From: Parcubacteria group bacterium ADurb.Bin115
GTDB lineage: Bacteria; Patescibacteriota; Patescibacteriia; Patescibacteriales; UBA12465
Direction: 5' to 3'
NCBI GenBank assembly: GCA_002070735.1
Contig: MWDX01000004.1
Coordinates: 1 to 40,064, forward strand
DNA: 40,064 nucleotides
The notes beneath the pieces are model-generated. The model was not told the origin of the DNA and did not search any database. It saw only the letters and a program-made list of their open reading frames with translations. Shown here piece after piece: positions 6,382 through 22,012 of the stretch (position 1 is its first letter; each line of letters begins with the position of its first letter). A program made the position numbers and the translations under genes.

Positions 6382-6470
6382 AAAAAATAAGAATGCCTAT
6401 TTTCACCTCCTCTCCAGTTACACTTTATCTTTCTAGTTTAACACTTTTATATATATTAATTTGTAGCATT

Positions 6471-7028
6471 ATGAAAATAATTATCGGACTAGGTAATCCT
6501 GGCGACAAATATGCTCTCAGTCGACATAACTCCGGCTGGCTGGCTTTAGACATGCTTGCCGGCGCTGACGGCTGGCGCCCAGAAAAAAAATTTAACGCCT
6601 TAATTAAAGAAAAGGGAGGAATTATTTATTTAAAACCACTAACCCTCATGAACAACTCCGGAGAAACGGCTTATAGGGTCCTGCGGTATTATCATCTCCT
6701 GGAAAAACAATTTGGCTGTATCACCAAAAAAAATCAAGATTTGCGCGATTGGCTGATAGTTATTCAAGACGACCTTGATCTTGATTTAGGTAAATGGAAA
6801 ATCAGTGATGATTCCCGTAGCGGTGGCCATAAAGGCGTACAATCAATCATTAATCATTTAAAAACACAACGTTTTATTCGTCTACGCTTAGGTATTAAAA
6901 ATGGAGAATTACGCCGTCTTATTCCTCCTGAAAAGTTTGTTTTACAGAAATTTAGCACCGAAGAACTACCGATTTTACAGGATAGTATAAAAAAAGGTTT
7001 AGCGGCGCTAAAACCTTATATACCTTAA
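6471..7028 (+). CDS. pth: Peptidyl-tRNA hydrolase
   Basis: Pth frees tRNA from peptidyl-tRNAs dropped by the ribosome. From ATG 6471 the protein starts MKIIIGLGNPGDKY, the canonical N-terminus, so the 26 extra residues available from ATG 6393 are rejected. GLGNPG, the catalytic histidine in SRHNSGW, the LTLMNNSGE loop and the aspartate in VIQDDLDLDLG are all present. The usual GGHNGL motif reads GGHKGV, replacing the asparagine that contacts substrate in the E. coli enzyme. Length 185 is normal. It converges on the candidate small RNA on the minus strand, whose 3' end reaches its stop codon. Confidence 0.95.
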   Translation: MKIIIGLGNPGDKYALSRHNSGWLALDMLAGADGWRPEKKFNALIKEKGGIIYLKPLTLMNNSGETAYRVLRYYHLLEKQFGCITKKNQDLRDWLIVIQDDLDLDLGKWKISDDSRSGGHKGVQSIINHLKTQRFIRLRLGIKNGELRRLIPPEKFVLQKFSTEELPILQDSIKKGLAALKPYIP

Positions 7029-7141
7029 AACAAATAAAATCCCCTTGACTGCTTATACAAAAAGCTTAGAAAGCATCCACCGCTAGGAGGAAAGCGGCTA
7101 GACACCAAAAACTTTTGTACAAGCAATCAAGGGAATTTTAA
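7027..7141 (-). ncRNA. Candidate small RNA, long hairpin with anti-Shine-Dalgarno loop
   Basis: Bases 7036-7064 and 7112-7139 form a 28-bp stem with a single bulge at 7063. On the plus strand three positions are C-A mismatches (7041/7134, 7049/7126, 7055/7120); on the minus strand all three become G-U wobbles. The same holds for two pairs in the middle helix 7073-7077/7101-7105. The RNA is therefore minus-strand. The apical hairpin is CCGCU/AGCGG (7093-7097/7080-7084) with loop UUCCUCCU, containing the same CCUCC as the 16S 3' end. A -35 TTGACA lies 17 nt from a weak -10 (TAAGCT), placing the start at about 7141, exactly where the stem begins; the 3' side ends in AUUUUAUUUGUUUU. It does not match tRNA, tmRNA, SRP RNA or 6S RNA as I know them. 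Confidence 0.6.
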
Positions 7142-7147
7142 CATTCC

Positions 7148-7176
7148 AGCTTAGACTAAAAAAAGCCTTATGTCAA
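7148..7176 (-). promoter_or_regulatory. Promoter of the candidate small RNA
   Basis: On the minus strand TTGACA (7176-7171) is followed by 17 nt and TAAGCT (7153-7148). The -35 is perfect and the -10 weak (3 of 6), which would suit a regulated promoter. It is divergent from the topA promoter, whose -35 lies 54 bp away. Confidence 0.5.
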
Positions 7177-7259: not shown

Positions 7260-7355
7260 GAGTATATCGGCCATACAAATTACAATTGATAAAATCACCA
7301 ATTTTAATATTTTTACCTATAAATAGCTGATAATTAATAATAAAAAATGGGAAAT

Positions 7356-9578
7356 ATGAAGCTAATAATCGTAGAGTCACCGACTAAGGCGAAGACAATT
7401 AGTAAATTTTTAGGCAAGGATTATCGAGTCGAATCTTCCTTTGGTCATATCCGCGATTTACCAACCAAAGAAATGGGAATCGACATTGAACACGGCTTTA
7501 AACCAAAATATATTACTCCACTCAAAGCTAAAAAGACGGTGAGCGCTCTTAAAAATGCCACCAACAAAGCCACCGCTGTTATTTTAGCGTCTGATGAAGA
7601 CCGCGAAGGAGAAGCGATTGCCTGGCACTTGACTCAAGTTCTAAAACTCGACGCCGATAAAACAGAACGCATTGTTTTTCATGAAATAACCAAACAGGCA
7701 ATTTTAAAAGCGCTGGAAACACCGAGGCATATCAATCAAAATTTGGTCGATGCCCAGCAAGCCAGGCGTATTCTTGACCGTCTTGTCGGCTATGAGCTCT
7801 CCCCCTTTTTGTGGAAAAAGGTGACTAAAGGATTATCTGCCGGACGAGTTCAAAGCGTCGCTATCCGCCTAATTGTAGAAAAAGAAAAAGAAATCCAAGC
7901 CTTTAAATCTCAAGACTATTGGACGCTGAGGGCTAGATTGCAGGGAGAAAAAAATAAGGAAGAATTTACCGCCGGCCTCTTCCGCTTAAACGGCAAGCCT
8001 TTTGATAAATTGGAGATAAGTCAGGAGATCGCGCTAGAGACTCAAAAAGAATTAGAAAGTGCCAAGTTTAAAATCAGCCACATAGAACAAAAAAAGGTAA
8101 GGAAAACCCCAGGAGGACCGTTTATTACTTCCACTCTGCAGCAGGGGGCCAACCGCCATCTTGGCTTTAGTGCCAAACAAACCATGATGGTTGCGCAAAA
8201 ATTATACGAACAGGGCTTTATCACTTACATGCGGACCGATTCCTTGAATCTCTCTCCCCAATTTTTAAACGAGGCGCGTGATTACCTCAAAAACACACTC
8301 GGAGAAAAGTATACTCTTCCTTCTCCTCGAATCTTTAAAACCAAAAGTAAAAATGCCCAAGAAGCCCACGAAGCAATTAGACCGACTTCAGTGGCGGCGA
8401 CGCCGGAAAAGCTAAAATCTAAACTCGACTATAACGGCTATCGACTATATAAACTTATTTGGGAAAGAAGCATTGCCACCCAGATGCCAGCCGCCCAACT
8501 AAACGCCACCGTGATAGACACTGAAGCTCTTTGCAATAACGGCAAACAGCACACCCTCCGCGCTAACGGACAGATACTTATATTCGATGGCTATTTACGA
8601 ATATATCCAGAAAAAACCGCTGAACAAGAACTACCAAAACTTAGAGAAAATGAAAAAGTGATTCTCTTATCCATAGAAACTGAACAACACGCCACCCAAG
8701 CGCCTGCTCGCTACAGCGACGCCAGCCTAGTTAAAGATTTAGAAAAATATGGTATTGGGCGACCATCCACTTACGCGCCAACAATCAATACCATTATTAC
8801 GAGAAATTATGTCATCCGTAATGAAGATAAACGCCTGCAACCGACCGATATCGCGATGGTGGTCAACGAACTATTAGTTGAACATTTTCCTAAAATAGTG
8901 GATTATAATTTTACAGCGGAAATGGAAAATGATTTAGACGAAGTGGCTGAAGGCAAAAAAAAATGGCAACCAGTTATTTCTAAATTCTACCAAGAATTCC
9001 ATCAAAATCTACAAAATAAATATGATAGTCTAAAAAAAAGCGATATTATGCCTGAAGAAAAATCTGAAGAAATATGCGATAAATGCGGAGCGCCGATGGT
9101 TATCAAAACTGGACGCTACGGTAAATTTCTAGCTTGCAGCGCCTTCCCTAATTGTCGCAATATCAAAAAACTTAACGGCCACGCAGCTAAAACCGAAGAT
9201 CCAGCTTTAGCCGCCTTGCAGGAAAAATATCAGGGCACGGTCTGCGATAAATGCGGAGCGGAAATGAAAGTTCGTTCCGGCAAATACGGCCCATTTCTAG
9301 CTTGTAGCGCCTATCCTAAGTGTAAAAATATCAAGAATATAAATGACGGCACCAGCAAAGAAAAAGAAATTGATTGCCCAGCTTGTAAAACAGGAAAAAT
9401 CGTTAAAAAATTTAGCAAACGCGGAATTTTTTACGCTTGCAATAATTATCCCGATTGTAAAAATACCTATTGGGGTCAACCAACCGGCGATAGCTGTCCC
9501 CACTGTGGCTCTCTTCTTATAAAAAACAAGACTGGCCAAACTGTCTGCAGTGACAAAGGCTGCGGTTACCAAGCATAA
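7356..9578 (+). CDS. topA: DNA topoisomerase I (type IA)
   Basis: TopA relaxes negative supercoils. From ATG 7356 it starts MKLIIVESPTKAKTISKFLG, the classic TOPRIM start; an in-frame ATG three codons earlier (7347) is also possible. The TOPRIM acidic residues are in LASDEDREGEAIAWH, and the active-site tyrosine is in GFITYMRTDS (near residue 291, base 8226). The C-terminus has four zinc-binding topoisomerase modules: CDKCGAPM, CDKCGAEM, CPACKTGK and CPHCGSLL each open a four-cysteine unit. The first two modules are near-duplicates. Length of about 740 residues is normal. Two hairpin terminators follow. Confidence 0.97.
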   Translation: MKLIIVESPTKAKTISKFLGKDYRVESSFGHIRDLPTKEMGIDIEHGFKPKYITPLKAKKTVSALKNATNKATAVILASDEDREGEAIAWHLTQVLKLDADKTERIVFHEITKQAILKALETPRHINQNLVDAQQARRILDRLVGYELSPFLWKKVTKGLSAGRVQSVAIRLIVEKEKEIQAFKSQDYWTLRARLQGEKNKEEFTAGLFRLNGKPFDKLEISQEIALETQKELESAKFKISHIEQKKVRKTPGGPFITSTLQQGANRHLGFSAKQTMMVAQKLYEQGFITYMRTDSLNLSPQFLNEARDYLKNTLGEKYTLPSPRIFKTKSKNAQEAHEAIRPTSVAATPEKLKSKLDYNGYRLYKLIWERSIATQMPAAQLNATVIDTEALCNNGKQHTLRANGQILIFDGYLRIYPEKTAEQELPKLRENEKVILLSIETEQHATQAPARYSDASLVKDLEKYGIGRPSTYAPTINTIITRNYVIRNEDKRLQPTDIAMVVNELLVEHFPKIVDYNFTAEMENDLDEVAEGKKKWQPVISKFYQEFHQNLQNKYDSLKKSDIMPEEKSEEICDKCGAPMVIKTGRYGKFLACSAFPNCRNIKKLNGHAAKTEDPALAALQEKYQGTVCDKCGAEMKVRSGKYGPFLACSAYPKCKNIKNINDGTSKEKEIDCPACKTGKIVKKFSKRGIFYACNNYPDCKNTYWGQPTGDSCPHCGSLLIKNKTGQTVCSDKGCGYQA

Positions 9579-21900: not shown

Positions 21901-21996
21901 TTATTTCTTCTTTGCAACTTTCTTCACAGCCTTCTTAGGGGCCTTCTTTGCAACTTTCTTCACAGCCTTCTTCACAACTTTCTTTTTAGTAGCCAT
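21901..21996 (-). CDS. 31-residue Lys/Ala/Val repeat peptide, histone H1-like
   Basis: Reading from ATG 21996, the peptide starts MATKKKVVKKAVKKVAKKAP and finishes with a second KKAVKKVAKK unit plus Lys, then TAA. About half the residues are lysine; there are no acidic residues. A 12-residue unit is repeated, reflected in a perfect 30-bp direct repeat at DNA level (21907-21936 and 21943-21972). The composition resembles histone H1-like tails and bacterial nucleoid or RNA-binding peptides; DNA or RNA binding is inference. The ribosome binding site (AAGGAGGTGAT, 5 nt before ATG) matches the 16S 3' end over 11 bases, far better than any other gene here. It has its own promoter and terminator, so high expression is likely. 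Confidence 0.8.
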   Translation of the reverse strand: MATKKKVVKKAVKKVAKKAPKKAVKKVAKKK

Positions 21997-22000
21997 AGTT

Positions 22001-22012
22001 ATCACCTCCTTC
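22001..22012 (-). promoter_or_regulatory. Near-perfect Shine-Dalgarno sequence and adjacent palindrome
   Basis: AAGGAGGTGAT on the minus strand is complementary to the anti-Shine-Dalgarno end of the 16S in this window. Directly upstream TGGGAAATTTCCCA (22014-22027) is a perfect 14-bp palindrome that could be an operator or an RNA hairpin next to the ribosome binding site. Confidence 0.8.

Follow-up and report, generated by a model that had tools for sequence, protein, structure and literature searches.

A conserved hairpin RNA with an anti-Shine-Dalgarno loop beside pth in Patescibacteria

Several sRNAs of the Firmicutes, such as LhrC of Listeria and RsaE and RNAIII of Staphylococcus, pair with Shine-Dalgarno (SD) regions through UCCC or CCUCC loops. 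Their hairpins are shorter than the one described here and imperfect, and their sequences are unrelated to it. A second group, the alpha-r14/cuckoo RNAs of Alphaproteobacteria (NfeR1, CcsR1-4), act in trans on mRNAs and expose an ultraconserved anti-SD motif in unpaired loops, while their stems differ strongly (PMC10746234); the CcsR RNAs are associated with DUF1127 (PMC10253847). The hairpin RNA reported here shares with this group the combination of divergent stems and an invariant anti-SD loop. But the alpha-r14/cuckoo loop motif is CCUCCUCCC, whereas the loops in Patescibacteria read UUCCUCCU or ACCCUCCU and do not contain it. Moreover, the alphaproteobacterial RNAs consist of three hairpins or occur as tandem copies, in contrast to the one very long hairpin found in our case (L017 and L018 have a tandem pair). 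Our RNA carries CCUCC, lies beside pth in Patescibacteria, in an SD-poor genome, and has no sequence or Rfam relation to alpha-r14/cuckoo. Most likely, it would resemble these RNAs in its action, but it is not a member of their group.

The hairpin is encoded in a window of 40,064 nucleotides, the whole stretch of DNA analysed, where the following features surround it:

7171-7176, minus strand: -35 element TTGACA; TTGACAT is invariant, at exactly 34 nt from the stem-base GTTAAAA in 8/8 genus genomes
7148-7153, minus strand: -10 element TAAGCT after a 17-nt spacer; TAAGCT or TAAGAT in 8/8 genus genomes
7033-7142, minus strand: hairpin RNA, predicted mature sRNA of ~110 nt with its 5' end near 7142; supported by its fold, its presence in 8/8 genus genomes and compensatory changes
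7085-7092, minus strand: apical loop UUCCUCCU with the anti-SD core; unchanged in 8 genus members, CCUCC retained in diverged homologs
7027-7038, minus strand: U-rich 3' end after the stem, probable termination; GGGG(A/G)NUUU, then U-rich sequence past the 3' arm in 8/8
6985-7014, minus strand: second possible terminator within the pth 3' end, GGTTTTAGCGCCGCTAAACC followed by T7; predicted from the fold, not conserved in relatives
6393-7028, plus strand: pth, peptidyl-tRNA hydrolase, convergent neighbour (PF01195, E 6e-40)
7347-9578, plus strand: topA, DNA topoisomerase I, divergent neighbour (PF01131, E 4e-127)

Folding of the minus strand of 7027-7141 gave 45 pairs and -58.6 kcal/mol, compared to a mean of -22.6 for shuffled sequences (z = -11.2; equalled by 0 of 200 shuffles). 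The plus strand reached only -34.5 kcal/mol, because eight pairs of the hairpin are G-U pairs on the minus strand. This agrees with the initial annotation, which had placed a hairpin RNA on the minus strand. Its argument from strand-biased G-U pairs holds insofar as no pair behaves the opposite way, but there are eight such pairs and not five. The hairpin spans 7140-7035 and begins, at 7140/7035, with an outer helix of 28 uninterrupted pairs, inside which a 1-nt bulge, a short helix and then the middle and apical helices follow. The 8-nt apical loop UUCCUCCU (7092-7085) and the 16S tail encoded in the window, GGATCACCTCCTTTCT, do share the CCUCC core, as had been claimed.

The arrangement TTGACA-17-TAAGCT places the predicted transcription start near 7141-7142. 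The promoter proposed in the initial annotation is borne out at the sequence level, with the predicted start at the stem base and both the -35 and -10 elements conserved in the genus. In the window species and one sister, TTGACA is also part of a small terminator-like hairpin (7180-7164), in whose loop it lies; this hairpin is not conserved, whereas TTGACAT is conserved in the genus.

We found a single copy of the hairpin in each of the eight genus genomes (G000-G007), always at the 3' end of pth and read toward it; no paralogs were found in its own genome. For the genus alignment, three members with the contig in opposite orientation were oriented to match. Double changes were observed in 7 of the 36 pairs, and neither any of 500 shuffles nor any slid version matched the covariation score. 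Related genomes, to which the initial annotation had looked for a decision, thus do have the stem and compensatory changes in it. We regard a conserved minus-strand RNA gene with constraint on its anti-SD loop as well supported and hardly open to doubt.

Searches by sequence and R1 reached the genus and one credible member from another genus (G009). R1 matches in G008, G049 and a second G002 locus (L057, L062, L061) were dropped, being without a CCUCC loop. Downstream of pth, Falkowbacteria and Komeilibacteria (L014-L021) have hairpins that share the CCUCC tip but have entirely unrelated stems, and Saccharibacteria-like genomes (L039, L044) have, at the same place, a hairpin with again a different stem and a CCUCC tip. 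In these and further Patescibacteria, the hairpins mostly sit just 3' of pth on the opposite strand, and most distant members have a strong σ70 promoter on the hairpin's own strand. L017 and L018 carry two tandem anti-SD hairpins on the minus strand, one with a UUCCUCCU-like loop and one with CCCUCC, and this pair therefore links the two hairpin types. A few distant members fold about equally well on both strands. A plus-strand reading with an SD-like loop was considered and not retained; the good promoters seen, in a scan that in this form covered the CCUCC strand, belong to that strand.

Sixty additional pth regions were retrieved for comparison. No motif was preselected: when the loops of strong hairpins close to pth and on the strand opposite to it were compared, CCTCC was the most frequent 5-mer (12 of 102), whereas in the remainder of these regions it was seen in 2 of 1,099 hairpins (Fisher p = 6e-12; the window's genus was left out of this count). 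Several CCTCC hairpins in GC-rich coding DNA (L067, L101, L065 and others) were treated as background; for this reason, the loop test was restricted in position and energy, with distant hairpins as the comparison. No hairpin of this kind was found beside pth in 20 regions retrieved from further families within the same class. Either the gene is therefore patchily distributed, or its location has changed.

A covariance model, R2, was derived from an alignment of nine distant members, in which 90.1% of the cells are paired and 13 of 26 pairs show double changes. None of 500 shuffles attained its covariation score, and the values lay far above every slid control. At E <= 0.01, R2 matched 25 of 381 Patescibacteria genomes. 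On inspection, 22 of these 25 have the CCUCC loop; they represent 10 families, and the hairpin is mostly, not always, beside pth. The other three (G146, G248, G377) were dropped since the loop is absent. Many Patescibacteria genomes gave no match, and the models miss diverged members. R2 did not match the window (Falkowbacteria) type either. Therefore, the proposed homology between the Falkowbacteria type and the Saccharibacteria type, like the assignment of distant lineages to one family, is based on synteny, strand, promoter and loop and not on a single model. Judged by these features, the RNA is a new and previously uncatalogued ncRNA family in many Patescibacteria beside pth; no description of it was found in the open-licence literature. 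RNAs of the Saccharibacteria type (L123-L138) are longer and have a 3' domain followed by a terminator. This domain contains UGUUG...GGGAG, complementary to CUCCC...CAACA of the hairpin 3' arm, and could possibly displace the hairpin 5' arm, thereby forming a two-state switch before the terminator.

That most genes of this genome lack SD sequences, as stated in the initial annotation, was confirmed: in 537 kb (the window and L153-L191), a strong SD motif precedes 0.2% of starts, for which the first ATG in any long ORF was roughly taken, versus 1.8% of internal ATGs. SD motifs are thus depleted before starts, yet the 16S tail retains CCUCC. Two convincingly SD-led genes were found in the 537 kb. 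One is an IS110-type transposase-like gene, named by eye from its sequence, and the other encodes a Lys/Ala-rich peptide:

21901-22010, minus strand: candidate target, consisting of the AGGAGGTGAT leader (22010-22001) and the gene of a 31-aa Lys/Ala-rich H1-like peptide starting at 21996; no other native SD-led gene was found in 537 kb, and the SD of this one is kept in six genus genomes

In six genus genomes (G000, G001, G003, G004, G005, G006), an AGGAGGTGA leader is found at the corresponding place, at a distance of ~15 kb from the hairpin; the H1-like product was read in all of these except G004. Other genera, both in the family and in the order, have similar SD-led Lys-rich peptides. Perfect AGGAGGTGA leaders precede genes of Lys/Ala-rich H1-like peptides (L205-L209, L211, L214, L192-L194) in genomes otherwise without SDs, and the length of these peptides varies from 20 to >100 aa through internal repeats. 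The SD-led genes of several other family members (L202, L203, L213, L215) are type IV pilin-like. For the H1-like gene, the computed loop-leader duplex has -9.6 to -10.4 kcal/mol and, by loop energy, ranks only 6th among 492 leaders. The same leader pairs far better with the 16S tail (-22 to -23 kcal/mol), and the RNA would therefore have to be abundant. Of the earlier proposal that this gene is a natural candidate target, its standing as the only native SD-led gene in 537 kb and its genus-conserved SD hold, while the pairing is a predicted one. The suggestion that the RNA competes for ribosomes does not follow naturally from an anti-SD loop, which would bind SDs of mRNAs or else factors with affinity for the 16S tail.

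In our model, the hairpin would be a stand-alone sRNA gene, transcribed on the minus strand from its σ70 promoter and terminated by the hairpin's own U-run. Its long duplex would act as a stable scaffold presenting the 8-nt loop, a copy of the 16S anti-SD core CCUCC. This loop would pair with GGAGG in the leaders of a few SD-led mRNAs, and a leader bound in this way would exclude the 30S subunit, so that translation would be repressed or timed. In the genus, the leading candidate would be the transcript encoding the Lys/Ala-rich H1-like peptide. By analogy with the alphaproteobacterial aSD-loop sRNAs, we consider action through pairing with SD leaders the best explanation and hold it with moderate confidence.

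Alternatively, the RNA may be a protein-binding decoy, whose loop, in imitation of the 16S 3' tail, titrates the KH domain of Era, an S1/S21-type protein or a 16S maturation nuclease, and which would couple ribosome assembly to growth. The loop of one lineage, AUCACCCUCCUUU, is indeed the 16S tail AUCACCUCCUUU plus one extra C, and the element is present also where SD leaders are almost absent. Era, however, contacts the AUCA part of the tail, and this part varies (UUUCCUCCU, UAUCCUCCU, CUACCCUCCU), CCUCC being the sole invariant part; we consider a decoy unlikely. We likewise give little credence to a broad mRNA regulator or sponge across the phylum, of which the Falkowbacteria genus would have a reduced version acting on one or two genes. 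The longer Saccharibacteria-type members with their 3' domain and terminator are consistent with it, as is the higher SD use in those lineages (in carriers, SD-led genes make up ~12% of the starts near pth), but mRNA targets are at most candidates in every lineage, and the loop and promoter of the genus are still strongly constrained. Therefore, the genus RNA is not a decaying remnant.

Identity with a known RNA in disguise, be it SRP RNA, 6S RNA or tmRNA, is extremely improbable. Bacterial SRP RNA (RF00169) is likewise a single hairpin of ~100 nt, and the RF00169 model found no match in 59 Patescibacteria, so that length and apparent vacancy would suit this assignment. But the hairpin has neither a GNRA loop nor the domain IV motif, and the Ffh M domain (PF02978) is itself absent from 10/10 Patescibacteria genomes tested (controls positive in 14/14). 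RF00013 (6S RNA) gave no match in 21 relatives, and the fold has no central bubble; ARAGORN detected no tRNA or tmRNA at the hairpin. No Rfam family matched it at or above the gathering cut-off; matches to microRNA families were rejected as chance matches to long hairpins. The position at the pth 3' end and the terminal U-run could also indicate a mere bidirectional pth terminator or a mobile palindrome. Single copy number, the conserved loop, a promoter at constant distance, strand-biased G-U pairs and compensatory changes all argue against both, which makes either very improbable, and no phage or plasmid matches to the hairpin were found.

Beyond pairing with SD leaders as such, we advance only tentatively, and as more doubtful than not, that a promoter-driven ncRNA, holding out an anti-SD mimic on a duplex stalk, may serve as a general initiation regulator throughout Patescibacteria, where the searches detected neither 6S nor SRP RNA, and that lineages which have abandoned SD initiation may keep it for the control of a single SD-led chromatin-like peptide. 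The Patescibacteria are a very large group of reduced bacteria, most of them uncultured, from which few regulatory RNAs have been described. In genomes nearly devoid of SDs, a conserved RNA with a copy of the anti-SD makes the question of how translation is started and regulated directly testable, with one predicted target.
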